Positions 20,909-62,859 of a DNA stretch of 64,000 nt are shown piece by piece. Within the stretch, counting starts at the first letter, position 1. Every line of letters begins with the position of its first letter. The stretch lies in the NCBI GenBank assembly GCA_030062745.1, contig CP099841.1:7251001-7315000 (forward strand), given 5' to 3'. The stretch is from Capitulum mitella (lineage: Eukaryota; Arthropoda; Thecostraca; Pollicipedomorpha; Pollicipedidae). The notes beneath the pieces were generated by a model, which was not told the DNA's origin, made no database searches, and saw only the letters and a program-made list of their open reading frames with translations. Position numbers and translations under genes: made by a program.

Positions 20909-22414
20909 ATGGCCTTGCTTTTCAACCAGCTCTTGAGGAGGCTTCAGCCAGCACAGAGGCATCACATAATCGCCAGAACGATCACCAGGAGCTCGGTTCC
21001 CGGCCTCCACTGTGCGGCGCTGACTTTCTCGTCCGATGATGCTGCCAGCAACCGGCGGCGGCGGGCGGCTGCCAGGCCCACGTGGGCGCGAGCGCTGCAC
21101 GCGGCGCCACCGCGTGCCGGCAAAGTGGTGCCGTTCCTGCTGTCGGACATTGGCGAGGGCATCGTTGAGGTGGCCGTCAAGGAGTGGTACGTGAAAGAGG
21201 GCGACCAGGTGAGCCAGTTCGACAGCCTGTGCGAGGTGCAGAGCGACAAGGCGTCCGTCACCATCACCAGCCGGTACGACGGCATCGTGCGCAAGCTGCA
21301 CTACGCCGTGGACGACACGGCGCTGGTGGGCCAGCCGCTGGTCGACATCGAGACGGAGCCGGGCTCGTCCGACTCAGAGGACGAGGTCCAGGAGCGTGAC
21401 GCCATCGAGGTGGTCGGCGGCGAGCGCTACACGCTGCCGCTGCCGGGCAAGGTGCTGTCCACGCCGGCCGTGCGCCGCATCGCCATGGAGAACAACGTGC
21501 AGCTGAGCGAGGTGAAGGGCACCGGGAAGGACGGCCGCGTGCTCAAGGAGGACGTGGCCAGGTTTGTGCAAGAGCGGGGCATGGTGCAGTCGGCCGGAGT
21601 GCAGGACGGCGGCGCGGCCAAGCCGAAGGAGAGGCCGACGCCACCACCCCCGAGGGAGGAGCCGAAGCCGGTCTCGCCCACCCCGCCCAAGGCCGCCAGC
21701 GTGCTGGTGACGGAGGACAAGACCGTCCCCGTGTCGGGCTTCACGAAGGCCATGGTCAAGGCCATGAACCTGTCCATGACTGTGCCACACTTCGGTTACT
21801 GCGACGAAATCGACATGACATCGCTGGTCAGTCTTCGACCGACGCTGAGGAAGAGCGCCGAGACCTTCGGCGTCAAGTTCTCCTACATGCCCGTCATTAT
21901 CAAGGCCTGCTCCATGGCCCTGATGCACTTCCCCTTGCTCAACGCCTCTGTGGACGCTGCCTGCGAGAAGATTACGTACAAGGCCAGCCACAACATCGGC
22001 ATCGCCATGGACACGCCGAACGGCCTGGTGGTGCCGAACGTGAAGCAAGTGCAAGGGCTGACTGTGCTCGAGGTGGCGCAGGAACTGAACCGGCTGCAGG
22101 CGCTGGGCGCGCGCGGCCAGCTGGCGGCTGCCGACCTCGCCGGCGGCACGTTCTCGCTCTCCAACATCGGCGCCATCGGTGGCACGTACGCCAAGCCGGT
22201 GATCGTGCCGCCTGAGGTGGCGATCGGCGCCGTCGGCCGAATCCAGAAGTTGCCGCGTTTCGCGCCGGACGGCGCCGTGGTGGCGGCTCACGTGATGCAG
22301 GTCTCTTGGTCAGCCGACCACCGCGTCATCGACGGCGCCACCATGGCCAGGTTCTCCAACATGATGAAGGCCTTCCTGGAGGAGCCCGCCGCCATGCTGA
22401 TGCAGATGAAGTAA
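20909..22414 (+). CDS. DBT: Dihydrolipoamide branched-chain transacylase, E2 core of branched-chain 2-oxoacid dehydrogenase, single coding exon
   Basis: The 501-residue protein is complete. Residues 1 to about 68 are rich in Arg and Ala and lack acidic residues early on, a mitochondrial targeting sequence. The lipoyl domain follows (about 72-148) with the lipoyl-lysine motif CEVQSDKAS (Lys114). After an acidic linker comes the peripheral subunit-binding domain (about 183-221: [20 protein letters not shown]). A Pro-rich linker (240-262) leads to the catalytic core (about 270-501), ending with [17 protein letters not shown], where His471 and Asp475 are the acyltransferase residues. The enzyme moves branched acyl groups from E1 to CoA in the mitochondrial matrix during Leu, Ile and Val breakdown. 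The frame is very GC-rich compared with its surroundings. The vertebrate gene has many exons, whereas here the whole coding region is uninterrupted, so intron loss or a functional retrocopy is possible. Confidence 0.95.
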
Positions 22415-22960: not shown

Positions 22961-23904
22961 CCATTTGTATATATACGTGAGATCTCGGCAGCGATTTTTG
23001 GCAGATCGTTGTTAAAACGTTACATCGACTTATGAGCTGGTAACCCACAGTGACGTTTCGACCCTTTGGTTTGGTTCTGCTTCCATGAACAGCCGAAGAA
23101 ATGTACGTTTTCAAGGATTTCACTGGGTCCACAACCACCAGTCCGCATCACTCCTCACGCCGTGTACGGGGGCCACGAGAATGAGAGCTTTATTATCATG
23201 GCGTAGCTCTCGTTTTAGACGAGTTTTCATGCTCACGCGGTCTGCTTCCAAACGGAAATAATCGCGCTCTCCTGTCCTCAATCATGTTGACAAGTCAGGA
23301 GACGTTTGGGGTCGATGTCCCCGGGACCGGGTCCTGGTGGCACGTACATAGAGGGGCCTGCAGTTGACATGTTCATGACTAGGGTTCTGGCTGTTTTGCC
23401 CATATCTTGCGTTCTATTTCGCTTCGGATGCTAAAACAGTAGCTTACGATGGGCTTTCGTGCAACGGTTCGAATGACATATGGGCCATTCCATATGAAAT
23501 CGCACAAGAATTAACCTGACCCCCTACGATTTTGATGCAATTTGGTACACTCATACGACCTATCGAAAAATGGCCTGCCAGATTTCTTTTAGCCCTGGGT
23601 GGTCTGAGGTCAAAGTTACTGGTCACAAAAGGTCACCGATTTTGGCAGACTACCTGACTCAAATGCCCATAATTCGGTGACATACTGTCACAGAAAGGTG
23701 GGATTAGCACCACTCGAAATATAAATGTTCCAGCTTTCGTAAACAAGTTCATTTTTCGGGTCACTGACCTAAGTTTAACCCCGTTTTTTTAAAACATGCC
23801 AATGTTTCAGAGTTTGACGGAATTTTATTATAATAATTTGAGAGTGGGGAGATCAAGACATCTAGTGTCTGCCAATAGACAGTTTCAGTGACCTCCGAAC
23901 ACTG
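22961..23904. other. Intergenic between DBT and the inverted duplication
   Basis: Nothing is recognised as a gene. The right half (about 23490-23900) looks like decayed repeat DNA, but similarity to the right arm stops at about 23905. Confidence 0.35.
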
Positions 23905-24689
23905 ACCTGAGGTCAGGTCACGAATAATTGTTATGAGTCGAAATGCACTGCCATCAAAATAGGCGATGAATGATTCAGACCTGCTGGCTTGCACAGCTGC
24001 GAATAATACCAAGAAGTTCGAAAAGTTTCAAAAACTGGAAATTTTTAAAATAAACATGCTTTTGTGAACAAAGCTCCATCAGCTGTGTAGACTAGCAAAT
24101 GCTGATATTTTTAAAACATTTAAGCACGAGAAACCATCACAAGGATTACTAGGGTCAAGAAACAACATTTGGAGAGGAATATTTCGCGAAAAAGAAGAAC
24201 GCTAAAATTAGCTCTCATTGATTCCATGATAACTGATTTCATGATCATGGTAAGGCATTTAAGTGACATGTCGATTATCCAACAATTATCTTTCGAAAGG
24301 AAATAAATGATCGCCCTGTTTCTGCATAAAGGGATGGTCGTAATAGGCCATTCTCTAAACTGCCATGGCGAAAGACTTTTCTCCCAGTGTACCGGAAGAT
24401 AGAGCGCTGAATTTTGCTGTAGCCGAGTTTGGTACATTTGTACACCTTGAATAATACACTCAGGTTTCATTTTTTATGCAACAGGTCGTGACCTGCGGTC
24501 TTTTTGTCAAGGCCATGTCAATCGTGTTTTTAACCAAATCGAGCAATACTTTGTTTGACATTGGACGTCTCAGAGCTGTGCTATATGTTTCTTTCATAAA
24601 TACTGGTGTCCATGACCTGATTTTCGTGTATGAAAATGGCCAGGCCATCAGAAGTTAAGCTAGGTCAAACGCAAATATCAAACATTGAA

Positions 24690-25330
24690 GATAAACGCCA
24701 TTGTAATTTTGTACAGAAGATAAGTGATACCTACACCTCCAAGAATGTTTTATTACGATCCACCACATCAACATTTTTCTGACATCGTTTGACGCAGTGC
24801 AGAGCCAATTAGTAGGTGAATATCACGCTGACTCAGAGAAATTGGGAAAGTCGAAAATTCGAAACCCGATTGCGCCCCCAGCGGTGAACCAGAGAAACTA
24901 TCGCGACCATCACAATGCTATATTAAGATAGACCGTGTACGGGCATACCTGCACACCAGATTGGTGACTCTTGCTCGAATGGTTTTCGACATGGAGTGAT
25001 TTCTGACAAACGACATAAGCCCCCTGGCGGTGACCTTGGGAACTAAGGTGGCCGCGACCCCAAATAGGCCAACCCCTCCCAGCCCGAGGAGAATCGGCGT
25101 GCCTTGTTTGGCAGGCGTGTCGTCGCTTGTTTGACCTGTGATCCGACAAAAGTGTAGTGGTACTATCATGCCTCCCAATGTAACTTTCAGCTATGGGAAC
25201 ATCTGCCTCACCTGCAAAGTCACTAACTGACCTAGATCCAAAAATCCATACTTTTTCCGATAACCAAGACAACGGCCAACACGCTGGTGCTTGCAAAATC
25301 GATCTATTTCCAAAACTTTGCAAACCATGC
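24690..25330. repeat. Dispersed repeat shared with the element at 12255, left-arm copy (inverse)
   Basis: Inverse similarity to about 12660-13090 (shared text around AAGGTCACCGCCAG and GGCGTGCC) and to the right-arm copy at about 40010-40560. It is probably a MITE fragment carried along in the duplication. Confidence 0.55.
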
Positions 25331-25420
25331 TGCTAAGAAACCTTTATCTAAGTACTGAACGTTTCTTTCACACTCAACCCAATTTTTCCGCGGTCTGCAA
25401 GTAAAGCGGCCCAGACGGAA

Positions 25421-26430
25421 ATGTGCGAATTGGTGGGCGAGCTACAACGGGCAGGGGAACGCGGCGGGCCGAGCTCGACTGATCGCGGACTCATGAACAA
25501 AACGAGGCCAAGTTGGGTGGCACTAGGCCGCCGTCGTCATGAGCTGTTCCCAGGTTGCCGGCGCAAGCTGTACAACTCGGACGAGCTACTGACCGGGGCC
25601 CGTCTTTGTTCTGTCTTCGCAACCACACCTCGAGTGTCAGTTTCACCGATGCTCTGGGAGTTGCCAAAACGTCCGTTCTTCTGCCCAGCGGCATCGTGTC
25701 TTTCAAGATTCAGTTCTCTCCTCTACTGCGTCTTCACTAACGACTTCAGTCTGTTCTCAGAGGGTCAATGGCGTACTCAAGGGCGCTTTCGGAGCCATGC
25801 CCCCTGGAGTGATCGACCCCTGGGCCAAAACCCCAGTAGTTTTTGCCAGTTTAAGGCGGCCGTGGGGCGTCTAAAACGTCAAAACGGGTCCCCAAGGTAT
25901 CAGAATAGGGCGCCGAGACTGAGGGGCCCCAAGTCCAAAGATAGGGACCCCAAGCTGCGAAGGGGACACCCTTGGCTGAAAGTGTTCCCTTGACCTGATT
26001 TGACCCCCTCCTAAACGAAATCCTGGGTATGTCACTGCAGTCGTGGTGCAGTGCGCTTATGACATCCAAACCGTCATTGGCAAAGGATCTGGAATTCAGA
26101 AAGTCGCCACTGAAATGGAACGAATTCTGTTCTCTCTCGACTTTTGGTTCGCAGCCAACGGACCAAAATTAAATGCAGAGAAGACTCAACTGATGGTGAT
26201 GGGCGGTCTACAGAACTGGCGCAATGCTCCAGCTTTCGCGTTAAAAATTCGCGGTCTTGATCTTCTCCCGTTTTGGAAGCCAAGACTCGGGGAATGAAGT
26301 TTGGTCGCTCCCTCAGCTGGAACTAGCCGCCTCTGTCGCCACCAGGCACTGCTGCGGAGTGCTGAATGGCCTACCACGTTTGAAGAGCTGCCCGTTACGT
26401 TTCCTCGCATCGGTAAACAGGGTCACAGCC
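25421..26430 (+). pseudogene. LINE (non-LTR retrotransposon) reverse transcriptase fragment, left arm
   Basis: The frame around 25690-25765 reads LLYCVFTNDFSLFSEG, like the segment before the catalytic YADD box of jockey/CR1-type LINEs. It resumes after a MITE insertion at about 26038 with VVQCAYDIQTVIGKG, where YADD has decayed to CAYD. Next come LNAEKTQLMVMG, FALKIRGLDLLP and, with frameshifts, the RRCCGVLNGL-type motif near 26345. Several frame changes and the lost catalytic aspartate show that it is dead. The class is assigned from motif order; the clade is a guess. Confidence 0.65.
25766..26037. mobile_element. Short hAT-like MITE inserted in the LINE fragment, left arm
   Basis: The 272-bp insertion separates two continuous parts of the RT frame. 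The start CAATGGCGTACTCAAGG and the inverse of the end, CAGTGACATACCCAGG, are imperfect inverted repeats. The flanking 8-mers are only partly alike, so the target duplication is decayed. The same insertion occurs at the corresponding site in the right arm. Confidence 0.55.
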
Positions 26431-27888
26431 AAACTGCCTATTCGCGACATTGGTCAAGCGAAAATTTGCTCGTTTCTTTTCCGGCTTTTTCGACGTACCA
26501 TTTAGACTTGATCATTAGCGTCGTACCTGGAAACCGACTGGTCAGGCGAAAACTGCCGGCACTGTCCGGCACATAGCCGGCTTCGCCTGGCGAGGGCAGG
26601 CCTGGCGCCGGGGCACAATACCAACTGTAGCACACACACACACACACGAGGCGGCCAACCTCAGGGCGCCTCGGTACAAGCACCGCACCTGTCACCCACC
26701 GTTATCTCCTTCCCGGTTAATGTTTTGGCCCTCTCGCAGATCCGGTACTACGTTTCGATTTACCAGAACAGAGCGCTAAAACTGCTTTGGATCTAAGCAG
26801 TTCTGGGCTACGTGGCTAGTCATGTGCTGTCCAAAAAAGAAGAAACATAATCACGCCTCGATCCTGCTTGAGAGGCTTTGCTGGCACAGCGCGGAGAACT
26901 AGGTGACTTACCAGACTTCGTGCGTGATAATAAATGATGATAATAAACATAATGCGTGATAATGCGTGACAAAAATTCGCCATCTGGGCGAAATTGATAC
27001 ACTGGTCAATCCATCTTCGGCGGTGGTGGAGACCTGTGGCATGGCCGTCTCATGCGCTCTCGCTCACCTGCGATGACGTTTTCCTTGTTTTTTTTTTTTG
27101 CTATGGATAGGCACCGATGAGAGGTTTTCATAGCCACCGTGCATAGTGAATTACGTAAGTAAATGTCTGAGTCTGAATCTAAGTCTGAGCCTATATATAT
27201 TTCGAGTTAACAGAGTCTTTGAATCTATTGTGGGATCGAAATAGAGGTCGGTTTCATTCCTTCCTCAATACTGAAATCTGCTTGCAGGGGCATATGAAGC
27301 GCGGGACAAAATGATGGCAAGGGGTCTTGAGAAATTCTCAGCCAGTCATGTCCAAGCGCCGCAGTTAAGATCATGGTCCGATGAAAGAAATGACAAAAAA
27401 AGGACAATGAGGATCTTTGTTTCTAGGTTCTCCCCTTTTTGCGTCTTTGCCTGTCTGATTATCACTAGGATGACCCATTTGAAAAAAAATTTGGATAAGT
27501 CATGCCCCTTTTTTTCTATTTCGTGCATGCTGATATGCTTATTCTGAATATCGCCTCCAAATTTCAAACCTCGAAATAAATTTGCCCGCGGAAAAATCTT
27601 GAAGTTTTTCAACAACGACCATTTTTGTACGTTTGCCCTAATAACATCAACACTTCTGGAAACGAATGCATGATTGACCGTTTGATTGGAAGCTAAGCTC
27701 TTTCCTATTCTCACGACGCAAAAATCATCTTTTTATGTTGACTGGTTGACTTGGAAATCCATCGTAAAGTAGGCGACAAAATACGGTTTAACATTCCGAT
27801 CATACATGGCGATACGGTCGGCTGCGCCTGTTTGCGCGCCGTGAAAGGGCTACGTTTTGCTCGATTGGCGACGTCGATGGAATGCAAG

Positions 27889-27894
27889 AATATA

Positions 27895-27932
<38 letters not shown>
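27889..27932. repeat. (TA)n microsatellite, left arm
   Basis: An almost pure TA tract interrupted by TGTGTG. The equivalent place in the right arm (36986-37164) has expanded and carries a perfect palindrome. Confidence 0.9.
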
Positions 27933-27936
<4 letters not shown>

Positions 27937-28139
27937 TAAATATGTATATCTTATCGATTGTGCATTTGTTTTCGCAAAAGCAAAAGTGAAATATAGTCCT
28001 CGGTTATTTCCCTTGTCATGTTTTTCTGCTTGATGCAAAAATTTAAGGTGGGCGTGATCTTGTGCGTACATGTTCTTATAGCTCTCTGTCGTAGCAAAAT
28101 AGAGCGCGATGGAAGGGAGAACGCTTCCGAAAGAAGTGT

Positions 28140-29280
28140 CCGGGTCAACAGTAAGATTTTGACCGAACGCTTACTTCGAGGGAAAATCATCGTAGAAGTG
28201 GTTGCATGCCGCTTCAAATGCAATATTGATAAATACTACTTACGATTTCAGCCGGAAAAACCTGAAACACACATTATTTTCCCCGAAACAGATTGCGCCG
28301 TCACTGGTATGCTAACCGCCAGACGCTCGCGTAGGGATTTTTGACGTTTCTGCATTTTACGTGAGATCTCGACGCTGATTGGTTGTCGCTCGGACTCAAG
28401 GTCCAATCAAGAGTAATAGAAAAGGTTGGGAAATAACTAATACGATATAAATTATCTTTAAAATAAAAAAGTCAGTCGTTTTAATAATAATAATAACAAA
28501 TAATAAACAAACAAACAATAAAAACAAACAATAATAGTAGAAAAGTAAAAACATTACAAAGATGGAAAAATGAAGTTGCAATTTGAAAAACACAAAAAAA
28601 TAAAAATCAGTGAAATAAAATATCTGAAAAAGAAATCACGGAACAAAACTGGAAAATATTAGGAAGTGAAATAAAACAAGAAATAAAAATTTACCTTAAC
28701 CTAACATAGTAACCTAACCTAACCTAGCCTAACCTAACCTAACCTAACCTAGCCTAGCCTAGCCTAACCTAACCTAACCTAACCTAACCTAACCTAACCT
28801 TATCTAGCCTAGCCCAGCACAACACAACCTAGCAACCTAATGTAATCTAACGAGTATTAAATGCCACAATGTAATAATACTGATATCAGATATACCCACA
28901 ATTATCTAATACAATAATATAATGGTGTAATAATTCAGCAGTTTCTCCAAGTTTAGTTTGCGGCAACAGAATAAAATTTTCATGTATATGACGTCATTAA
29001 TTGCTTGAAGATGCATGCAGGGTCTACACATCCTTGATGTCAATAACCGTGACTTTGGCGGCACTGCATTTTCCGCCGCGGAATAATGTTGTTCTCCGCC
29101 AGTCGACTGCGGCACGGTATTACTGAGTGGTACGTTATCGTTACGATTTTGTCGTTATTTTTTAGAAAATCAAGTAGTGGAAAGTATGGTTAGAAACAGG
29201 ATGATACATTCTTTACATTGGTGGCAATTATACAAAGGATTCTTTGCGATTTCGTCGGGCAGCAACTTACCTTTAGCCAG
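28140..29280. other. Segment present only in the left arm of the inverted duplication
   Basis: The arms match directly on either side of this stretch: left GCTTCCGAAAGAAG and CGTCCTCGTTTG are contiguous in the right arm near 36780-36800. The segment holds an A-rich low-complexity part (about 28440-28690), the TTAGG-type block, and about 450 bp without recognised features. The ends are not a clean GT-AG pair, so an insertion here or a deletion in the right arm is likelier than an intron. Confidence 0.65.
28693..28840 (-). repeat. Interstitial telomere-like repeat, (TTAGG)n on the minus strand
   Basis: From 28711 to 28800 the plus strand is 18 successive 5-mers, 14 of them AACCT and 4 AGCCT. 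The reverse complement is (TTAGG)n, the standard arthropod telomere repeat. Decayed units extend to both sides. The block is far from any chromosome end in this window. Confidence 0.88.
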
Positions 29281-29375
29281 CGTCCTCGTTTGAAAAGCAC
29301 GTCCAGTTTCACATCGTCTCGTGTGAGCAGCCAAAAGACCAGCTACCCACCTGTGGCCAAATCATTGGTAAGATA

Positions 29376-29645
29376 GTGCTGACCCGAGTTCAGCATATGC
29401 TGGAAGGAGAAGTCGATCACTATCACGTCCCCATAAAGATGTGCGTGACAATTGCAGCCAATGACACAACCGCCATACAGAACAACGCATCTGTTCTTGC
29501 AAGGCGAAAAGATAAAGTAGAAGCCCTGATAAGGCAGATGTGGCACCACAAAGACGCACCGAGAAAGGCAGGGAAAAGTCTGAACGCGCGGGATCTGTCG
29601 GGGCTATTCGGCATTTCTAATCCGCAATGCCCCCGGAATTGTTAG
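29376..29645 (+). CDS. Uncharacterised ORF of the inverted duplication, left-arm copy
   Basis: 89 codons that correspond to the last two thirds of the right-arm ORF at 36424-36816 (shared pieces LTRVQHMLEGE, RRKDKVEALIRQMWHHKDAP, KSLNARDLSGLF). It ends at the same place, ISNPQCPRNC. I do not recognise the family. The upstream part of the right-arm ORF is separated here by the 1.1 kb arm-specific segment. It may be a transposon gene remnant. Confidence 0.35.
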   Translation: MLTRVQHMLEGEVDHYHVPIKMCVTIAANDTTAIQNNASVLARRKDKVEALIRQMWHHKDAPRKAGKSLNARDLSGLFGISNPQCPRNC

Positions 29646-30503
29646 ATGACCGAGACTTCCTAGAGGATATGGGAGCCGCCCGGCAGCAGTACATCGGGGG
29701 GGGGGGGACTGACAGGGCGACGTCATCATGGTGGCAAAGGAGAGACGATCAACAACGGCGCTGTATTATCGCCAATGCTGCCAGAGGTACCGCCGCCGCT
29801 CCCGGCACTGCTGCTGACATCGAGGGATTTTCTCCAAGCCACAGCGATGGAAATGCAGATGATAGTGATGCTGATAGTGACGCCGAAAGCAAAGATTATA
29901 AGGCAGTTCGCCCCATGCTGGAAAAAAGAAAGATCTGGATTTAGTCGCCGAGGCGCTTAGTGCGACTGATGCAGGGGCAAGGAAGGCGTCGAAGATACTG
30001 ACGTCGTTTTCAGTGACTGTGTACGATGGTACGGTGTTAACGAAACAGAAAGTTCAAAGCGCACTGGAACGTACTAGAAGCGACAAGGTAAGTGGCGTGA
30101 GTGCCCAGGCCGCTGAGTGTTCCGCTGCTTTCTGTGACGGGCGCAATGACCAGACGAGGGGAGTAAGTGAGTCAGAAGAGGGCAACCAAACGCAGTGTCG
30201 TGTACATAATGTGTTTGTAAACTTGTATTCCGGTAACATGAACGTGGGTGATGTGAGCTGTGGGGGCAGACATACATGCATAGTGCAAGCCCTTCTGAAA
30301 CGATGGGGGTGGATGCTGGAAAGATACTGTTTGTTGGCGGGGATGGAACAGATCAGGTGACTGGCTGGAAAGAGGGCTGGACGACGAGGCTCTAGCAAAT
30401 TGTCGGTAATCCTCGGGGTGGTTACCGTGGTGTGTCTCCTCCATCGTACAGAACTATCCCTGCCGTGGTCTGTTCTGTCATCTGGATGGTGATGCCGCCG
30501 GTC

Positions 30504-31272
30504 CTACGACCTTCTCTGCGCCGATTGGTTAGAGTATATCGGGGTCGATACACAGCCCGCCCGAGGTAGGATTTGAAGTTGTTGAACAAACGTGCGGTTG
30601 CTGAAGTCATCGGGCCCCTGGGTTCCCTGGACGGGGCAGTCCGTTTCGTCGCTGCCATCCACGCAGTCGCGGTCGCCGTCGCAGCGCCAGGCCAGCGGGA
30701 TGCATCTGGTGCTGTTCCGGCACTTGAATTCGTTCGGACCGCAGCTGCGGTCGCAGTCGCTCTCATCGCTGCCGTCGTCGCAGTCGTTTTCGCTGTCGCA
30801 CTGCCACATTTTGGGTATGCACCTGCTGCCGTGACCGCAGGAGAACGTGTCGGACTCGCAGGTGATATCGGTGTCGGCACCTGTAACGGTGGTGGCTCGG
30901 TCAGCAGTGTCATGGACAACTTCGTCAAGGTGTCATCCGCGAGCAAGCTTGAACGATCGAAATTCCACTTCCAAAGCCCATTCATCGTGTCGGACACGAG
31001 TCACATGATGTCAGGTTGCGAGGACTTTTAACCTTCTGAAACTGTAAATCACTTGTTATTTGGATTGAATTCAGCAGAACGCGACGTCGCAAACACGACG
31101 CGCCACAACGCGCATTTCAGCAAACGTACCTGTCTGCAAATGCAAAGCAGCGGCATATCGTACATGGACGGCGGCTCCGGTGAACACAAGCCGTCCGGCT
31201 GGGTACCTTACCGCAAACGCCGACGCCGACGAGCAGGAGACACGCCATCAGAGTCGCTGCCATCGAGGTCAT
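30504..31272 (-). CDS. Small secreted two-LDLRA-domain protein, copy 1, with a replaced C-terminus
   Basis: Exon 1 is 31212-31272 (a signal peptide containing [13 protein letters not shown]) and exon 2 is 30504-30880; the phase-1 intron is GT-AG. The product is 145 residues. It contains two LDL-receptor class A modules with six Cys each and the acidic calcium box [16 protein letters not shown] in the first and [16 protein letters not shown] in the second. After DDFSNRTFV the sequence departs from copies 2 and 3: the hydrophobic tail is lost, and about 24 residues (starting [11 protein letters not shown]) are read from the inverted-duplication arm. LDLRA modules bind ligands extracellularly with Ca2+. 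This copy would be secreted rather than membrane-anchored, if expressed. It is probably a chimeric or dying copy made by the rearrangement. Confidence 0.6.
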
Positions 31273-31479
31273 GGTTCTGTCGAGCTCCGCCGCTGGCCGG
31301 CACCAGAAGGCGACTGGTGTCGGCGAGGTTATCGCGCAAACGTACAGAAATAAACGAAGGAAGCCGCTGTGGTCAAAGTGTGTCCGGCTGACCACCGCCG
31401 ACTGCCAGCGCCGCGGAAGCCAGCTTCCCCAGGTCTGACCTGGTCTGAAGGCGGGGCGGTGTAGCTCACGCGCAGGCCT

Positions 31480-33480
31480 GTTGTTTGGGAAAAAGGGCGT
31501 AGTACGTTCGGAACCAAACTGTTTCAGATAAATGAGACATACACGATTCTTCATTTTCCGTTGGCGTCGTGCTTAGACTGACGGCAAGCTACTCAGCGTT
31601 TATTTTAATAAAAGCGCCCCTTTTTTACAATCATTTTTCTCCGCATTTGGTTCCGGACGTACTACTCCCTTTTTCCCAAACAACAAGCCTGCGCGTGAGC
31701 TACACCGGCCCGCATTCAGACCAGAAGGTCAGACCTGGGGAAGCCGGCCTCGGCAGCAGAGCCGGCTTCCGCGGCGCTGGCAGTCGGCGGCGGTCAGCCT
31801 GACACACTTTGACCACAGCGGCTTCCTTCGTTTATTTCTGTACGTTTGCGCGATAACGTCGCCGACACCAGTCGCCTTCTGGTGCCGGCCAGCGGCGGAG
31901 CTCGACAGAACCATGGCCGCGATGGCAGCGACTCTGATGGCGTGTCTCCTGCTCGTCGGCGTCGGCGTTTGCGGTAAGCGTGCCCCGCCGGACGGCTTGT
32001 GTTCACCGGAGCCGCCGTCCATGTACCATATGCCGCTGCTTTGCATTTGCACACAGGTACGTTTGCTGAAATGCGCGTTGTGGCGCGTCGTGTTTGCGAC
32101 GTCGCGTTCTGCTGAATTCAATCCAAATAACAAGTGATTTACAGTTTCAGAAGGTTAAAAGTCCTCGCAACCTGACATCATGTGACTCGTGTCCGACACG
32201 ATGAATGGGCTTTGGAAGTGGAATTTCGATCGTTCAAGTTTGCTCGCGGATGACACCTTGACGAAGTTGTCCATGACACTGCTGACCGAGCCACCACCGT
32301 TACAGGTGCCGACACCGATATCACCTGCGAGTCCGACACGTTCTCCTGCGGTCACGGCGGCAGGTGCATACCCAAAGCGTGGCAGTGCGACGGCGAAAAC
32401 GACTGCGACGACGGCAGCGATGAGAGCGACTGCGACCGCAGCTGCGGTCCGAACGAATTCAAGTGCCGGAACAGCACCAGATGCATCCCGTTGGCCTGGC
32501 GCTGCGACGGCGACCGCGACTGCGTGGATGGCGGCGACGAAACGGACTGCTCCGTCCCGGGAACCCAGGGGCCCGATGACTTCAGCAACCACACGTTTGT
32601 TGTGGCGGCCGCCCCTGACTTCAGCGACTACACGTTTCTTGTGGCAGCCGCCCCAGCGACGTGCCGGCACTGGCTGCCGCTCGTACTGATTGCGGCGTGG
32701 GCGGCGGCCGCTCACTAGGGTGCGGACACGTCGGCGCGTTCCACCAGTGCGGCACAGGGTCAGCGCCTTCCACCAGTGTGGCGCATCGTCGGGCATTTCG
32801 CCAGTGTGGCGCCGAACGCTGCGGCGGGTGCTGGGCGCGCTAAAGGTGCGAGACGCGTGCCGGCTGGTCCTGTCGAATCAGACAGCCCGCGGTGCTGAGG
32901 AGCACTCGGAAATGGCGATCGGCACTTGATCTGCCAGAGGAGAAGTCTCGCACTGCCGGCATCGTCAGGGATTGTTGCACGCGGGTCCAGTTCGTTCGAG
33001 GGTGTGGTGACGGGTGTTGCGCGCTGTCAGGAGCTCTGGAGTACAACGCAACATTAGTGGTGGTGTAGAGATCCAACGCGGCGCGGTTCACAGTAGGTTA
33101 TATACCCTCAGACAGATCAGTGTGCCTGAAGCAATGTTTACCAACGGATAGCCAGTAGTGGAGAAGCTGCAGCAAAAACAACGAAGCTGTGATGAAACCA
33201 TGAAGGACTACATAGAATGAAGAAGCCGAAGAGCTATTCATTGTCCAGCCAGACACACCAAACAAGAAGACAGTGAAATGTTACATGAATAAATAGATTA
33301 TCATGCTTGGAAATACGAGTTTAGTACATTCACGTCAGAACTGCTTTTGCAAAAAAATGTGAGGTTCGCCTTTTTTTAATAAAATCAATAAGCCATTCAC
33401 CAAACTCTAAAAAAGTTGCCCAACCTAACGGCCTCTTAGGTTGCATTAATATAAGACGCGTTTATTTTTGTCTTATTTGA
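31480..33480 (+). repeat. LDLRA-gene duplicon, copy 2 (plus orientation)
   Basis: The whole block, including 5' flank, gene, 3' flank and the sequence around TAGGTTGCATTAATATAAG at 33440, is the inverse of 41385-43290. Copy 1 (about 30585-31497, minus) is a shorter, inverted version. It meets copy 2 across a spacer of about 165 bp (31498-31662). Confidence 0.85.
31913..32718 (+). CDS. Small two-LDLRA-domain protein with GPI-type tail, copy 2
   Basis: Exon 1 is 31913-31973 and exon 2 is 32306-32718; donor GTAAGC and acceptor CCGTTACAG give 157 residues. A signal peptide ([20 protein letters not shown]) is followed by two LDLRA modules (first CESDTFSC to DESDC, second CGPNEFKC to DETDC). After a short linker comes the hydrophobic C-terminus [18 protein letters not shown] with no cytoplasmic charges, which looks like a GPI-attachment signal. 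The product should therefore sit on the outer cell surface, binding a ligand through Ca2+-loaded LDLRA modules; the partner is unknown. Two differences from copy 3: the second calcium box reads DGGDE instead of DGSDE, and a 39-bp in-frame tandem duplication repeats the linker ([13 protein letters not shown]). Confidence 0.72.
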
Positions 33481-35486
33481 TTACTCACTTTATAAGGTAT
33501 ACGTTTCGTCTGACTTGCGGCAGCAAAGAAGTTGCTTGCTTGTGGGCTATATGTTCGTTGGCGAACGCCGCTTTTCAGCGTTCTTGAATAGATCATGTTA
33601 ACGACCACAAACGAACTGAGTCTTTTTTGCGAGCAACAGGGTTTATCTTGCTCATGATCGAACGACCCACAGCTGAAATTGGCCTCACTAGGATTTGGTC
33701 TGTTTTCAACCGTAACTTTTGTTCTTTTCTGCTTTGGATTGCAAAATGATATTCGTCGGATGTGTTCAAGCGCCCCCATCCGATTGGTGCATATCGCAAC
33801 ATTGGCATAAATTGCTTTAGCAAAATATTATCATAAAACACTTTTTGACGCTTCGGGACGCGGCATCCTGTCGATAGCCAGGTATCTCCTCTGCAAGTGC
33901 ACCGCTGTCCGGGACAGCAGGAGTCAGTTGTTTGATCCGGTTACACACGATTTTAATATCCGGAAGTGACCAATTTTTCAAAATTTTCAAAAAGTCATTC
34001 TCCCATTTTTCTGGTGCATTGCGTTACGCTGATTCCGAATATCACTTCCAAATTTCAAATTGCGGCATAAATTTGTCCGTGGAAAAATCTTGAATTTTTT
34101 CAACGTAACCATGTTTGTACGTCTGTCCCAATTACGTCAACATTTCTGGCAATGAGAGCATAATTGGCCGTTTTATCGAAAGCTGAACTCATTCCTATTC
34201 CAACGTCGAAGATGCCAGTATGTCGAAAGTATGCTTTCGCACTGACTGGTTGACTTGGATACCAATCGTAACGTGGCCACTGCATACCGTTCCACATTTA
34301 CATCATAGATGGCGTCACGCTCGGCACGTAGGCGCGGCGTGAGTGGGCTGCATTGTCGTCGACTGGCAGCGTCAATGGAAGTAAAATATCCGGACATGCT
34401 TTCGTGACGTTCTGATTTCTTCACGGACAGCAATGTACATACATAAGTTATCGTTCTCCTTGTGCAAGCTGCAATCAAACGAGATGCCCACCAACATACA
34501 GTTATCATGGCAATGCTTTCACTGACACCGCTGTCCGTGGAGCACACTTGAGCCGCAAGCCTACGTAAAAAAAAAACACATTCCACCGCACCAGCCACTC
34601 CCACTGCCGGTCATCTCGTGTCTAACAACTAGGCTTTTCCCTTGATCGTCACCGAACCAAGTCATCGCTGCTGGAATGTTCTCTTGTTTAATGCATGCCC
34701 GTCTTGCTGCTCGCTGCCTTTGACGGCGGCAGCGGCCTCGCTCGTCAGCTTCACGCTGCGCTCGGTGGATTCAGTGCGGCAGGGCACACCACACCAGGGC
34801 GGCAGCACATAGTCCTGCAGCTCACAGCCAGGAACGTTGCTCACAGACGAGGTTCCAATGCCCTCACCCTATTCGGCCGCCAGCGACACGTCCATCGGTT
34901 TAATGTAGACGTTGGCCTGGATATTTACCTACGGCACTTTGAAAGTGCGGATGGCTGGTCTGGCTGGCACTCGTGTGGGTGCGCTGCGGCGACGCTCTGC
35001 GCGCGCGGCCCTGACCAGCCACACGCTATCTGCCCTCACCGTCCGGTTGTGATCACCCAGCATAGCGAGTACATATCCTCCGGATGCGCCGCACAGGCTT
35101 TCCGGGTGACGCTGTTCTGCATCACTCCCAGTTCAGCGCCGCTGAAATACTGCCGCTGACGCACCAGCTCTTCACAGATTTGCACTGGTGCATTTACAAC
35201 ATCCCAGAGGTGCCTGATGAGCATCACCACGGGCAAGTACACGCACGTCACGTGGCGCACGAACGACGAGCTGATGACGGGCGCTGTGCTGATGCGTCGT
35301 AACGCAGCAGGCGGCTCTGCGCCGTGTGCCAGCGAGCTTCACAGAGCGGGCCGGTCTACGCGTTGTCCGCTGGCCGTCCCGCGTCACCGGTCATGACCGC
35401 CCCGGCGCACCGATACAGCAGTCGCATGTCGCTGCTCATGCCTGCACCACGTCGGAAGGGACGGATGGAAAATCCGAGCACTGCAC
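33481..35486. other. Central spacer of the inverted duplication
   Basis: About 2.0 kb between LDLRA copy 2 and the right arm. The part 33950-34320 is a diverged direct copy of 27540-27780 in the left arm (and inverse of 37330-37560). From 34660 to 35400 GC content rises and minus-strand frames of 60-75 codons occur, such as 35036-35260, but no family is recognised and the frames break often. It could be a decayed gene. Confidence 0.4.
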
Positions 35487-36423
35487 AGCTTCAAATCCTA
35501 CCATGGGCGGGCTGTGTATCGGCCCTGATGTACCCTAACCAATCGGCCCGGAGAAGGTCCTGGGACCGGCGGTATCACCATCCAGATGACAGGACGGACC
35601 ACGGCAGGGATAGTTCTGTGCGATGGAGGAGACACACCACGGCAACCACCCCGAGGATTACCGACAATCTGCTCGAGCCTCTTCGTCCAGCCCTCTTTCC
35701 AGCCAGTCACCTGATCTGTTCCATCCCCGCCAACAAACAGTATCTTTCTAGCATCCACCCCCAGCGTTTCAGAAGGGCTTGCACTATGTATGTATGTCTG
35801 CCCCCACAGCTCACATCACCCACGTTCATATTATCGGAATACAAGTTTACAAACACATTATGTACACGACACTGCGTTTGGTTGCCCTCTTCTGACTCAC
35901 TTACTCCCCTCGTCTGGTCACTGCGCCAGTCACAGAAAGCAGCGGAACACTCAGCGGCCTGGGCACTCACGTCACTTACCTTGTCGCTTCTAGTACGTTC
36001 CAGTGCGCTTTGAACTTTCTGTTTCGTTAACACCGTACCATCGCCCATAGTCCACTGAAAACGACGTCAGTATCTTCGACGCCTTCCTTGCCCCTGCATC
36101 AGTCGCACTAAGCACCTCGGCGACTAGATCCAGATCTGGCTTTCTTTTTCCAGCACGGGGCGAACTGCCTTATAATCTTTGCTTTCGGCATCACTATCAG
36201 CATCTCTATCATCTGCATTTCCATCGCTGTGGCTTGGAGAAAATCCTTCGATGTCAGCAGCAGTGCCGGGAGCGGCGGCGTTACTTTTGGCAGCATTGGC
36301 GATAGCACAGCGCCGTTGTCAGTCTTCTCTCCTTTGCACCCTGATGACGTCGCCCTGTCAGTCCCCCCCCCCCGATGTACAGCTGCCGGGCGGCTCCCAT
36401 ATCCTCTAGGAAGTCTCGGTCAT

Positions 36424-36816
36424 CTAACAATTCCGGGGGCATTGCGGATTAGAAATGTCGAATAGCCCCGACAGATCCCGCGCGTTCAGACTTTTCCCTT
36501 CCTTTCTTGGTGCGTCTTTGTGGTGCCACATCTGCCTTATCAGGGCTTCTACTTTATCTTTTCGCCTTGCAGGAACAGATGCGTTGTTCCGTATGGCGGT
36601 TGTGTCACTGGCTGTAATTGTCACGTACGTCTTTATGGGGACGTGATACTGATCGAATTCTCCTTCCAGCATATGCTGAACTCGGGTCAACACTATCTTA
36701 CCAATGATTTGACCACAGTTGAGTAGCAGATCTTTTGGCTGTTCACACGGGACGATGTCAAATTGGACGTTCTCTCCAAACGAGGACGCTTTTTTCGGAA
36801 GCGTTCTCCCTTCCAT
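36424..36816 (-). CDS. Uncharacterised 130-residue ORF of the inverted duplication, right-arm copy
   Basis: Complete frame from ATG to stop, beginning MEGRTLPKKASSFGENVQ and ending ISNPQCPRNC. It is basic and hydrophilic, with no signal peptide or membrane segment. The left-arm counterpart keeps most of the frame open over 89 codons despite many substitutions, which hints at past coding function. I do not recognise the family. It could be part of a transposon-encoded protein whose later exons have decayed (another shared frame lies at 35707-36048). Confidence 0.4.
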   Translation of the reverse strand: MEGRTLPKKASSFGENVQFDIVPCEQPKDLLLNCGQIIGKIVLTRVQHMLEGEFDQYHVPIKTYVTITASDTTAIRNNASVPARRKDKVEALIRQMWHHKDAPRKEGKSLNARDLSGLFDISNPQCPRNC

Positions 36817-36985
36817 CTCGCTTTATTTTGCTACAACAGAGAGCTATAAGAATACGTACACACAAGATCACGCCCACCTTAATGATATTTGTTGCATCAA
36901 GCAGAAAAGCATGACAAGGGAAATAACCGAGGACTATATTTCACTTTTGCTTTTGCCAAAACAAATGAAGAATCGATAAGATATG

Positions 36986-37058
36986 CATATATATATATAT
37001 ATATATATATATGCAAGATAGACGCAAGATATATAGATATATACACGCAAGGTAGGCG

Positions 37059-37106
<48 letters not shown>
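36986..37106. repeat. (TA)n microsatellite tracts, right arm
   Basis: Two pure TA tracts (about 36986-37012 and 37060-37106) separated by copies of a GACGCAAGATATATAGAT-like unit. Confidence 0.9.
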
Positions 37107-37107
<1 letters not shown>

Positions 37108-37122
37108 GCAATATGAATGCAA

Positions 37123-37184
37123 TAAAATGCAAGATTTTTATTGTATATATATATATATATATACAATAAAAATCTTGCATTTTA
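37123..37184. repeat. Perfect 62-bp palindrome with TA core
   Basis: The two 31-bp halves are exact reverse complements, beginning TAAAATGCAAGATTTTTATT and centred on a TA tract. It can form a cruciform or a tight RNA hairpin. Confidence 0.9.
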
Positions 37185-38583
37185 CCGACATCGCCAATCG
37201 AGCAAAACATAGCCCTTTCACGATGCGCATATGGGCGCAGCCTACCATGACGCCATCTATGATCGGAATGTTTAACCGTATGTAGTCGCCTGTTTCACGA
37301 CTGATTTCCAAGTTAACCAGTCAACACAAATTGGCATGATTTTGGCGTCGTGCGAATAGGAAAGAGCTTAGGTTTCGATCAAATAGTCAATCATATATTT
37401 CCATTCATTTCCAGAAGTGTTGATGTTATTAGGGCAAACGTACAAAAATGGTCATTGTTGGAAAACTTCAAGATTTTTCGGCCGGCAAATTTATTTCGAA
37501 GTTTGAAATTTGGAGCTGAATCTTCAGAATAGGCATATCGGCATGCACAAGATAGAAAAAGGGAGCATGACTTGTCCAACATTTTTTCAAAATGGGCTAC
37601 CCTAGGGAGGATCAGACAGGCATAGGCGCAGAAAGAGGAGAATCGAGAAACAATGAACCTCAATTTTCTTCTTTTTCATTTCTTCTATCGGACCACGACC
37701 TAAACTGCGGCGCATGGACATGACTGGCTTAAAATTTCTCAAGACTCCTATCGCTATCATTTTGTCCCGCGCTTCGTATGCCTCTGCAAGCAGATTGCAG
37801 TATTGAGAAAGGAATGAAGCCGATCTCTATGTCTATCACACAATAGATTCAATGACTCTGTTAACTCGAAATGTATATAGACTCAGACTTAGATTCAGAC
37901 TCAGACATTTGCTTATGTCATTCACTATGCACGGCGGTTATGAAAACCTCTCATCAGTACCTATCCATAGCAAAGAAAAACAAGGAAAATGTCATCGCAG
38001 GTGAGCGCAAGGAGAGCAGTCAGACTGTCTCAGACTGTCAGTCCACGTACTCCTGCCTGTCCGGCGCACGGCACAGGTATGGCCCAAGACGACGGCCGGA
38101 AAGCGAAACCGGCAGACTCAACAGCTCAGACGGCACCTCACTGTACAGGGCGGCAGCCCGGCTGCAAAAACGTCTCACGCCCATCTCGGTGCGAGATTGT
38201 TAAATGTGCATGTGACGGCCCTGTCGTGTAAGCCTGCCACAGGTCTCCACCACGGCGGAAGATGTATTGAGCAGCGTCTCAGTTTCGCCCAGATGGCGAA
38301 TTTTTGTATCACGCACGAAGTCTGGTGAGTCACCTAGTTCTCTGCGCTGTGCCAGCAAAGCCTCTCAAACACGACCGAGGCGTGATTATGTTTCTTCTTT
38401 TTGGGCAGAAAATGACTAGATACATAGCCTAGAATTGCTTAGATCCAAAACGGTTTTAGTGCTCTATTCTGGTAAATCGAAACGTAGTACCGGATCTGCG
38501 AGAGGGCCAAAACATTAACCGGGAAGGAGATAACGGTGGGTGACAGGTGCGGTGCTTGTACCGAGGCGCCCTGAGGTTGGCCG

Positions 38584-38587
<4 letters not shown>

Positions 38588-38642
<55 letters not shown>

Positions 38643-38651
38643 TGTTTGTGT
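38588..38651. repeat. (GT)n microsatellite
   Basis: About 26 uninterrupted TG units and a short imperfect extension. The left-arm counterpart near 26634-26650 is a much shorter CA tract, so the repeat expanded after the duplication or shrank on the left. Confidence 0.95.
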
Positions 38652-38869
38652 GCTACAGTTGGTATTGTGCCGGGCGCCAGGCCTGCCCTCGCCAGGCGAA
38701 GCCGACTATGTGCCGGACAGTGCCGGCAGTTTTCGCCTGACCAGTCGGTTTCCAGGTACGACGCTAATGACCAAGCCTAACTGGTACGTCGAAAAAAGCC
38801 AGAAAAGCAACGAACAAATTTTCGCTTGACCAATGTCGCGAATAGGCAGTTTGGCTGTGACCCTGTTTA

Positions 38870-39870
38870 CCGATGCAAGGAAACGTAACAACGGGCAGCT
38901 CTTCATACGTGGTAGGCCACTCAAAGACTCCACAGCAGCGCCTGGTGGCGACAGAGTCGGCTAGTTCCAGCTGAGAGAGCGACAGACTTCATTTCCCGAG
39001 TCTTGGCTTCCAAAACGGGGAGAAGATCAAGACCGCAAATTTTGACCTCGAAAGCTGGAGCATTGCGCCAATTCTATGGACTGTCCAGCACCATCAGTTG
39101 AGTCTTCTCTGCATTTACTTTTGATCCGTTGGTTGCGAACCAAAGGCTGAGAGAGAACAGAATTCGTTCCATTTCAGTGGCGACTTTCTGAATTCCAGAT
39201 CCTTTACCAATGATAGTTTGGATGTCATAAGCGCACTGCACCACGACTGCAGTGACGTACCCTGGATTTCATTCAGGAGGGGGTCAAATCAGGTCAAGGG
39301 GACACTTTCAGCCAAGGGTGTCCCCTTCGCGGCTTGGGGTCCCTATCTTTGGACTTGGGGCCCCTCAGTCTCGGCGCCCTATTCTGATACCTTGGGGACC
39401 CGTTTTGACGTTTTAGACGCCCCACGGCCGCCTTAAACTGGCAAAAAGTACTGGGGTCTTTGACCCCAAGGGGTCCATCATCTCCAGGGGGCATGGCCCC
39501 AAAAGCCCCCTTGAGTACGGCTTTGACCCTCTGAGAACAGACTGAAGTCGTTAGCGAAGACGCAGTAGAGGAGAAAACTGAGTCTTGAAAGAGACGATGC
39601 CGCTGGGCAGAAGAACGGACGTTTTGGCGACTCCCAGAGCATCGGTGAAACTGACACCCGGGGTGTGGTTGCGAAGACAGACCAAAGACAAGCCTCGGCC
39701 AGTAGCTCGTCCAAGTTGCGTAGTTCGCGCCAGCAACCTGGGAACAGCTCATGACGACGGTGGCCTAGTGCCACCCAACTTGGCCGCGTTTTGTTAATGA
39801 GTCCGCGATCAGTCGAGCTCGGCCCGTCGCGTTCCCCTGCCCGTTGCAGCTCGCCCACCAATTCGCACAT
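38870..39870 (-). pseudogene. LINE reverse transcriptase fragment, right arm
   Basis: Inverse copy of the left-arm fragment, with the same order of broken motifs (the FANDFSLFSEG piece near 39540, then the LWFATNGSKVNAEKTQL piece near 39130) and its own extra stop codons. It is interrupted by the same MITE. Confidence 0.62.
39250..39525. mobile_element. hAT-like MITE nested in the right-arm LINE fragment
   Basis: Starts CAGTGACGTACCCTGG and ends with the inverse-type CCTTGAGTACGGCTTTG. It sits at the same site as its left-arm counterpart, so the insertion predates the duplication. Confidence 0.55.
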
Positions 39871-39989
39871 TTCCGTCTGGGCCGCTTTACTTGAAGACCG
39901 CGGAAAAATTGGGTTAAATGTGAAACGAAACGTTCAATACTTAGATAAAGGTTTGTTAACAGTATGGATTCCAAAGTTTTGAAAGTAGA

Positions 39990-40560
39990 TCGATTCTGCA
40001 AGCGCCAGCGTGTTGGCCAATATCCTAGCTATCAGACAAAACGTATGGATTTTTGGATCTAGGTCAGTTAGTGACTTTGCAGGCGAGGCAGATGTTGTCA
40101 TAGCTGAAATTTACATTGGGAGGCATGATAGTTACCATTTCATTTTTGCCGGTTCACAGGCCAAACAAGCGACGACACGCCTGCCAAACATGGCACGCCG
40201 ATCCTCTGGGAGGGGTTGGTTTATTTGGGGTCGTGGCCACCTTAGTTCCCAAGGTCACCGCCAGGGGCGCTCATGTCGTTTGTCAGAAATCACTCCATGT
40301 CGAAAACCGTTCGAACAAGAGTCACCAATCTGGTCTGCAGGTATGCCCGTACACTAGTATATCACTTGTGACTGCCGCGATAGTTTCTCTGGTGCACCGC
40401 TAGGGGCGCAATCGGGTTTCGAATTTTCGACTTCCCAAATTTCTCTAACTCAGCGTGATATCCATCCTACTAATTGGCTCTGCACTGCTTCAAACGATGT
40501 CAGAAGAATGTTGATGTGGTGGATCGTTATAAAACATTCTTGCAAGTGTAGGCATCACTT
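39990..40560. repeat. Dispersed repeat shared with the element at 12255, right-arm copy
   Basis: Same orientation as 12660-13090, with shared text around AAGGTCACCGCCAG and GTCACCAATCTGG. It is the inverse partner of 24690-25330. Confidence 0.55.
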
Positions 40561-41384
40561 ATCCGCTGCACAAAACGACAATGGCGTTTATCTTCAATAT
40601 TTGATATTTGCGTTTGACCTAGGTTGACTTCTGATGGCCTGACCATTCTCAGACACGAAAATCAGGCCATGGACACCAATATTTATAAAAGAAACATACA
40701 GCACAGTACTGAGACGTCCAATGCCAAACAAATGTATTGCTCGATTTGGTTAAAAACACGACTGACATGGCCTTGACAAAAAGACCGCAGATCACGACCT
40801 ATTGCAAAAAAAATTAAACCTGAATGTATTATTCAAGGTGTACAAATGTCCCAAACTCGGCTGCAACAAAACTCAGCGCTCTTTCTTCCGGTACACTGGG
40901 AGAAAAAGTCTTTCGCCATGGCAGTTTAAAGAATGGCCTATTACGACCATCCCTTTATGCAGAAACAGGGCGATCGTTCATTTCCTTTCGAAAGATAATT
41001 GCTGTAATCATCGGTATAATGTCATTTGTGTCTTGATCCTAATATTCCTTGTGATGGTTCTCGTGCTTAGATACTTAGAAATCAGCATTTTTCCTGTCTA
41101 CACAAGTGATGAAGCCTTATTTACAAGAGCCTGTTTATTTCCAAAATTTGCAGTTTTGAAAGTTTTCGAACTTCTTGGTATTACTTGTGTTCGCAATCGT
41201 GCAAGCCAGTTTAGCCATTTCCTACCTGATCTGAGTCATTCATTGCCGATTTTGATGACAGTGCATTTTGACCCATAACAATTACTCGTGACCTGACCTC
41301 AGGTCATGGATTTAACATCATCTTTCAAACTGAAGCGGTCAACGAACAAGCCATAATGCAACTGCTTTGCTGCCGCAATTAAAA

Positions 41385-43290
41385 AAAAAACGCGTCTTAT
41401 GTTAATGCAACCTAAGAGGCCGTTAGGTTGGGCAACTTTTTTTTAGAGTTCCGTAAATGGCTTATTGATTTTACTAAAAAAGGTGACCCTTACATCTTTT
41501 TTTGCAAAAGCAGTTCTGACGTGACTATGGTAAACTCTTTTTTCCAACCATGATAATCTATTTATTCATGTAACATTTCACTGTCTTCTTATTTGGTGTG
41601 TCTGGCTGGACAATGAATAGCTCTTCGGTTTCTTCATTCTATGTAGTCCTTCATGGTTTCATCACAGCTTCGTTGTTTTTGCTGCAGCTTCTCCACTACT
41701 GGCTATCCGTTGGTAAACATTGCTTCAGGCACACTGATCTGTCTGAGGGTATATAACATACTGTGCACCGCGCCGCGTTGGATCTCTACACCACCACTAA
41801 TGTTGCGTTGTACTCCAGAGGTCCTGACAGCGCGCAACACCCGTCACCACACCCTCGAACGAACTGGACCCGCGTGTAACAATCCCTGACGATGGCGACC
41901 GTGCGAGACTTCTCCTCTGGCAGATCAAGTGCCGATCGCCATTTCCGAGCGCTCCTTAGCACCGCGGGCTGTCTGATTCGCCAGGACCGGCCTCGCACCT
42001 CCTGCGCGCCCAGCGCCCGCCGCATCGTTCGGCGTCACACTGGCGAAATGCCCGACGATGCGCCACACTGGTGGAATGCGCCGACGCTTTGCCGCACTGG
42101 TGGAACGCGCCGACGTGTCCGCACCCTAGTGAGCGGCCGCCGCCCACGCCGCAATCAGTACGAGCGGCAGCCAGTCCCGGCACGTCGCCGGGGCGGCCGC
42201 CACAACAAACGTGCGGTTGCTGAAGTCATCGGGCCCCTGGGTTCCCTGGACGGGGCAGTCCGTTTCGTCGCTGCCATCCACGCAGTCGCGGTCGCCGTCG
42301 CAGCGCCAGGCCAACGGGATGCATCTGGTGCTGTTCCGGCACTTGAATTCGTTCGGACCGCAGCTGCGGTCGCAGTCGCTCTCATCGCTGCCGTCGTCGC
42401 AGTCGTTTTCGCCGTCGCACTGCCACGCTTTGGGTATGCACCTGCCGCCGTGACCGCAGGAGAACGTGTCGGACTCGCAGGTGATATCGGTGTCGGCACC
42501 TGTAACGGTGGTGGCTCGGTCAGCAGTGTCATGGACAACTTCGTCAAGGTGTCATCCGCGAGCAAGCTTGAACGATCGAAATTCCACTTCCAAAGCCCAT
42601 TCATTGTGTCGGACACGAGTCACATTATGCCAGGTTGCGAGGACTTTCAGCCCTCTGAAACCGGAAATCACTTCTTATTTGGACTGGACTCAGCGGAATG
42701 CGACGTCGCAAACACGACGCGCCACAACACGCATTTCAGCAAACGTACCTGTCTGCAAATGCAAAGCAACGGCATATCGTACATGGACGGCAGCTCCGGT
42801 GAACACAAGCCGTCCGGCGGGGCACGCTTACCGCAAACGCCGACGCCGACGAGCAGGAGACACGCCATCAGGGTCGCTGCCATCGCGGCCATGGTTCTGT
42901 CGAGCTCCGCCGCTGGCCGGCACCAGAAGGCGACTGGTGTCGGCGAGGTTATCGCGCAAACGTACAGATGTAAACAAAGGAGGCGGCCGTGGCCAAAGTG
43001 TGTCCGGCTGACCGCCGCTGGCTGCCAGCGCCGCCGAAGCCGGCTCCGCTGCCGAGGCTTCCCCAGGTCTGACCTCCTGGTCTGAACGCGGCGCGGTGTA
43101 GCTCACGCGCAGGCCTGTTGTTTGGAGAGGAAGGGAGTAGTACGTCCGGGGCCAAATGCAGAGAAAATGCTTGTAAAAAAGCCGCTTTTTATGAAAGTAG
43201 TCGCTGAGTAGCTTGCCGTAAGTCTAAGCACGACGCCAACGGAAAATGAAGAACCGTGTATATCTCATTTATCTGAAACAGGTTAACTGG
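41385..43290 (-). repeat. LDLRA-gene duplicon, copy 3 (minus orientation)
   Basis: Inverse of 31480-33480, from CGCGTCTTATGTTAATGCAAC at the inner edge to CTGAAACAGGTTAA at the outer edge. It lies just outside the right arm. Confidence 0.85.
42126..42892 (-). CDS. Small two-LDLRA-domain protein with GPI-type tail, copy 3, probably the ancestral form
   Basis: Exon 1 is 42832-42892 and exon 2 is 42126-42499, with the same phase-1 GT-AG intron as copy 2. The product is 144 residues: signal peptide, two complete LDLRA modules (calcium boxes [16 protein letters not shown] and [16 protein letters not shown]), a short linker VVAAAPAT, then the hydrophobic end [18 protein letters not shown]. All twelve module cysteines and the acidic calcium ligands are present, and the frame is clean, so this is the best candidate for a working gene. 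The large GC-rich frame on the opposite strand (41892-43085) is its shadow. Family knowledge gives an extracellular ligand-binding role; the ligand is unknown. Confidence 0.75.
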
Positions 43291-62804: not shown

Positions 62805-62859
62805 CTGACCTGTCCGGCCGAAACCAGCCGCTCAGCCCCGCAGACGGGAGGGCTGCTCA

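Follow-up and report, generated by a model that had tools for sequence, protein, structure and literature searches.

The locus considered here raises the question of how three copies of one LDLRA gene came to lie in alternating orientation at the borders of a long inverted repeat, and in how many events. The window analysed comprised 64,000 nucleotides of Capitulum mitella (GCA_030062745.1, contig CP099841.1, positions 7,251,001 to 7,315,000, forward strand), and coordinates are given as positions within it (Table 1). A single ancient DUP-TRP/INV-DUP event around the LDLRA gene, with two junctions and with later deletion, insertion and conversion, is considered the probable answer.

Table 1. 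Positions of the repeat copies, junctions, predicted genes and later changes in the window.
Feature	Position	Strand	Remarks
Copy 1 of segment A	23903..30582	+	ancestral orientation; joined to presumed native left flank
Insertion in copy 1, ~1.1 kb	28142..29278	.	absent from A'; 1,144-column gap in A' including one site copy
LDLRA gene X1, predicted 145 aa	30504..31272	-	exon 1 31272-31212, exon 2 30880-30504
Deletion joint in copy 1	30583..30584		~2.9 kb lost (X1 3' end and spacer copy); ~2 bp filler
Novel junction J1	31517..31518		head-to-head; palindrome centre; loop ~130 bp (31518-31648)
LDLRA gene X2, predicted 157 aa	31913..32718	+	exon 1 31913-31973, exon 2 32306-32718
Spacer	33470..35484		complete in middle copy only; 33515 to ~33602 homologous to 41307-41381
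A', middle inverted copy of segment A	35485..41306	-	
Novel junction J2	41306..41307		beside TGACCTCAGGTCA hairpin (41294-41306); ~5 bp at joint outside both matches
Left end of copy 3	41307..41381		75 bp; inverted match to spacer 33515-33602
LDLRA gene X3, predicted 144 aa	42126..42892	-	exon 1 42892-42832, exon 2 42499-42126

The window was compared with itself by BLAST; the matches listed are the off-diagonal ones of at least 150 bp (21 of 29). Segment A recurs inverted as A' in five blocks of 77.6-94.0% identity, gaps included. X is a 1.9-kb unit with a two-exon LDLRA gene and occurs as three alternating copies. X1 and X2 match in inverted orientation (30585-31518 against 32601-31646, 95.1%), X1 and X3 in direct orientation (30585-31518 against 42204-43156, 93.1%) and X2 and X3 in inverted orientation (31516-33469 against 43284-41382, 91.7%). 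The order given in the initial annotation (arm A, LDLRA(-), LDLRA(+), spacer, inverted A, LDLRA(-)) agrees with these matches to within a few bases. No inverted self-match of at least 150 bp at E<=1e-10 was obtained in 10 windows simulated with a first-order Markov model of matching dinucleotide composition. The A/A' alignment contained 448 differences in 5374 ungapped columns, 300 of them transitions and 148 transversions, and 45 gaps, 22 of them of one base and the largest of 1,144 bp, which bears out the many substitutions and the 1.1-kb indel described earlier for the arms. The longest perfect arm-to-arm match was 186 bp (30948-31133).

Two nested palindromic systems had been proposed, one of arms and one of LDLRA units on the arm borders. 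This is not needed. Read outward from 31518-31648, A and X1 on the left stand in matching order with X2, spacer and A' on the right, A+X1 being collinear with the reverse complement of X2-spacer-A'; the two sides are one interrupted palindrome, from which ~2.9 kb is absent on the left. The homology blocks between copy 1 and the middle copy run from 23903 to 31517 and from 41306 to 31647. Copy 3 is homologous to the middle copy over 41382-43281 (33469-31519), reaching J1.

The X2-X3 homology stops at 31516-31519 and 43281-43284, within 3 bp of J1. Clear microhomology was not found at J1 by eye, and no inverted repeat of at least 4 nt was present within the 20-21 bases tested per end (1262 of 2000 random places have one); later divergence of 5-8% could hide a short inverted repeat there. 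At J2, the edge of a near-perfect TGACCT/AGGTCA hairpin coincides exactly with the junction. Only one of the four breakends has a hairpin nearby, and about 4% of all positions lie equally close (5 bp or less) to a hairpin edge, so that the hairpin is no more than suggestive as a mark of the event. A one-event model predicts that the 75 bp between X3 and A' is either spacer from the left of X or sequence from outside A. Among six flank comparisons, these 75 bp matched the start of the spacer in inverted orientation, with gaps and a local score of 62, and this match ends ~5 bp from J2. Among 100 shuffles the highest control score was 27, and among 30 whole-window shuffles it was 43; the next best place in the window scored 31. 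None of the remaining five flank comparisons exceeded its own shuffles. The X2-X3 homology thus reaches J1 and, after a short gap, comes near J2, so that two junctions explain every border; its J2 end is placed provisionally, by this one short gapped match.

The outer flanks both carry long frames. On the left, 20909-22414 is an uninterrupted frame whose product is, by Pfam, a 2-oxoacid dehydrogenase acyltransferase (E2) that includes lipoyl and E3-binding domains; we take it to be of the branched-chain kind. On the right, 50980-51963 is an uninterrupted frame for an opsin-like receptor of the rhodopsin family (Pfam); the best match of its product among solved structures was Kumopsin1, presumably a jumping-spider rhodopsin. 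Other repeats were also observed in the window. A dispersed repeat occurs at 12498-13164 in the left flank and once per arm (24647-25320 and 39971-40635), with 69.5-73% identity between flank and arms. A further inverted repeat of ~1.2 kb (3630-4848 against 18840-17506) has 81-82% identity. Minisatellite arrays at 5862-6336 and 6469-7256 face each other and comprise related 14-17 bp units in opposite orientation. Another minisatellite (62846-63367; 46-bp units, ~11 copies) lies partly under open frames 62690-63079 and 63219-63707.

The ancestral locus would have comprised the E2-like gene, A, the spacer, X(-) and the opsin side, one of each. Replication or repair synthesis may have passed A, the spacer and X, and then switched strand just upstream of X, creating J1. 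X, the spacer and A would then have been copied backwards as far as the hairpin at the outer end of A. A switch back into the spacer beside X would have formed J2, with synthesis continuing through X into the right flank. The product would have contained two copies of A, three of X, of which the middle one is inverted, and two of the ~130 bp, in the order left flank-A-spacer-X1, J1, X2-spacer-A', J2, 75 bp of spacer-X3-right flank. Subsequently, copy 1 would have lost 2.9 kb and gained the 1.1-kb insertion, and X1 and X2 would have been homogenised by conversion across the palindrome. We infer this polymerase path and order of events; the layout, the meeting of the homology borders with the two junctions, and the indels are seen in the sequence itself. 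The segment is found in three copies with the middle one inverted (X1(-), X2(+), X3(-)), and on the presumed ancestral locus the copy number runs 1-2-3-2-1 (A twice, the spacer presumably twice with loss from copy 1, X three times, and the ~130 bp at 31518-31648 and 43284-43156 twice). Two novel junctions suffice for all borders if one later deletion and one insertion are allowed. Among the origins suggested previously, template switching fits, since two junctions account for the copy borders; with breakage-fusion alone, a return to the right flank would not be expected.

The insertion in copy 1 is bounded by a 7-bp target-site duplication, AGYGTCC, with one difference, and the empty site in A' is 36784-36790. 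A telomere-like CCTAA (TTAGG-type) array of ~20 degenerate units lies inside it (28710-28811); TTAGG is the common arthropod telomere repeat, and together with the Kumopsin1 match the array indicates an arthropod. Clear microhomology was not found by eye at the deletion joint. The deletion gives X1 a new tail.

Noncoding differences in the part common to the three X copies numbered 14/576 for X1-X2, 39/576 for X1-X3 and 40/576 for X2-X3 (first against last, p 4e-4). Grouped by site, 33 join X1 and X2, 11 and 13 support the other pairings, and at one site all copies differ. The A/A' divergence (8.3%) was not different from that of X2-X3 noncoding sequence in this common part (p 0.26), and a single age for the whole structure is therefore possible. 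X2-X3 noncoding divergence over the full length (94/1463) was somewhat below A/A' (p 0.016), X2-X3 over all columns (101/1898) was further below it (p 1e-5), and X1-X2 over all columns (25/933) was far below it (p 2e-11). Given these lower values, one age for all parts can be upheld only if conversion, constraint or rate inequality is assumed. Along the palindrome the differences are unevenly spread (variance/mean 5.4 in 200-bp windows, reached by 0 of 2000 permutations), with patches of raised arm identity as in gene-conversion palindromes, and they grow with distance from the palindrome centre (Spearman 0.46, p 0.01). From these counts, X1 and X2 look homogenised by gene conversion. Our reading is a single old event, followed by conversion that was strongest close to the centre; unequal mutation rates or constraint are possible alternatives. 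Sites at which X3 stands against both other copies were divided into 1 coding and 32 noncoding, and X1- or X2-only sites into 11 coding and 13 noncoding (p 1.2e-4). Constraint thus appears to have been relaxed on X1 and X2 and kept on X3. Over the 115 codons shared by X1 and X2, 9 of 10 coding base differences change the amino acid (273 of 345 sites are nonsynonymous).

The LDLRA assignment was made for the X2 exon by Pfam (PF00057, two stretches, E 1.2e-26), for the X3 exon by matches to LDL-receptor-family chains in PDB, and for X1 by comparing the predicted proteins by eye. Predicted X3 has a signal-like start, LDLRA domains and a hydrophobic tail (mean hydropathy 1.62), for which GPI-type anchoring is a guess; AATAAA lies at 41566. 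The presumed native 5' flank (43285 on) is kept by X3 only. X2 contains an in-frame 39-bp tandem duplication and is followed by AATAAA at 33288 and 33378. In predicted X1 the last 26 residues derive from the deletion joint and arm A and lack hydrophobic character (mean hydropathy -0.63), and neither AATAAA nor ATTAAA was found between 29000 and 30503 on the X1 strand. An alternative, longer exon 1 with its donor near 32057 was ruled out by intron phase, by eye. Scanning viral contigs with the X3 exon gave 20 pattern matches and no relative; tRNA and Rfam searches found nothing. A doubtful extension of the one-event reading is that X1 and X2 share a newly formed head-to-head promoter, that X1, having lost its hydrophobic, possibly GPI-type tail by deletion, became a secreted two-LDLRA form, and that X3 keeps the old role; the locus would then be a fixed, long-lived, gene-making DUP-TRP/INV-DUP in an arthropod. 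Long dsRNA from read-through, as suggested in the initial annotation, has a weaker case than was claimed. Because the palindrome centre lies between the divergently oriented X1 and X2, their own transcripts would not cross it and would form no hairpin. Complementarity would require X3 read-through via A' against an X1 3' extension or X2 read-through, or a transcript running across the position at 31.5 kb.

The earlier caution that haplotypes may have been joined was right, and the sequence was weighed against it. The assembler would have joined two or three diverged haplotypes in which the locus is simply A-spacer-X, and a haplotig (31518-41306) would have been set in inverted orientation between contig ends. 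Divergence of 3-8% could be allelic if heterozygosity here resembled that of one barnacle, Balanus improvisus: for its 66 genes that have two allelic alignments, PMC8270832 reports a mean difference of 5.5%, and of ~20% at fourfold sites, and the A. amphitrite draft assembly described there is of two pooled animals. The four breakends could likewise be arbitrary contig ends. However, three distinct X copies would require three haplotypes, the window contains no N, and by eye no common sequence for an overlap join is present at J1 or J2. The left and right outer flanks have only 138-bp and 74-bp matches in common at E<=1e-5, and apparent constraint on X3 and not on X1 and X2 would be odd for alleles. 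Flanks, three X versions and overlap-free junctions together argue against joining, which we regard as possible though rather unlikely; we infer that the assembly is correct here. A missed-adapter or fold-back read artefact was rejected, since a self-folded molecule would be near identical and here substitutions are about ten times as many as gaps, and transitions twice as many as transversions.

A history of at least two independent events, in which X2/X3 arose first by inverted duplication and A and X were later duplicated separately as a palindrome, would explain why sites support ((X1,X2),X3) and why A/A' is more diverged than X1/X2. This would not predict that the ends of X2-X3 homology fall at the two junctions, and the A/A' divergence is not below that of X2/X3. 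Since the borders of an older X2/X3 duplication would lie just where J1 and J2 are, this was not preferred, and we hold such a history to be improbable. It is very improbable that a large mobile element brought the LDLRA genes and that the arms are its terminal repeats. A does hold repeats, as the relative of part of it at 12498-13164 (69.5% and 73%) indicates, and a palindromic motif lies at its outer end. Against this, the inverted copies are offset rather than terminal, with X1 inside and X3 outside. No Pfam family was found in the eight A/A' reading frames scanned (three at E<=0.01, five at E<=1) out of many more short ones, and a target-site duplication was not found by eye at 23903 or 41306.

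The single-event structure appears from its layout to match a known kind, DUP-TRP/INV-DUP of the PLP1 type. The comparable rearrangements described in the papers cited here are disease alleles or were found in yeast. From an aged, inherited example in which both junctions can be read, the later fate of the palindrome would be visible: deletion in one arm, insertion, near-centre conversion and relaxed constraint on two of the three genes. A literature search for inverted triplication in crustaceans found none, which is no proof that none is in print. Human DUP-TRP/INV-DUP (PLP1/MECP2), as described in these sources, and the present locus are alike in their two junctions, 1-2-3-2-1 copy number, inverted middle copy and little or no junction homology. 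PMC10766186 gives the 1-2-3-2-1 pattern, with junction homology of 0-4 bp in 13 of 14 DUP-TRP/INV-DUP cases taken from it and 47 bp in one. In PMC4352052, PLP1 rearrangements are described with two junctions and four copy-number transitions, and a later deletion in one copy occurs there also, in case P1150. PLP1 Jct1 is placed in that account within pre-existing long inverted repeats, whereas none was seen here. Unlike the human cases, the locus measures ~20 kb in all and its copies have diverged by 3-8%; the rearrangement is therefore old. The ODIRA inverted triplications of yeast SUL1, for which PMC10766186 proposes secondary rearrangement, resemble it in that their copies alternate, a palindromic junction encloses a short loop, and secondary deletions occur. 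The J1 loop is ~130 bp, in contrast to 40-80 nt in that description, and the short (~5-nt) inverted repeats 40-80 nt apart that are given there for ODIRA junctions were not found at J1. Fold-back inverted duplications (PMC3907307) offer a further comparison. The long inverted repeats of Caenorhabditis are described in PMC1803023 as nearly perfect, whereas the arms here are ~92% identical; both have head-to-head and tail-to-tail gene copies, and maintenance of similarity is proposed there. As an aged, inherited example, the locus would bear on the origin of inverted repeats with gene pairs in animal genomes.
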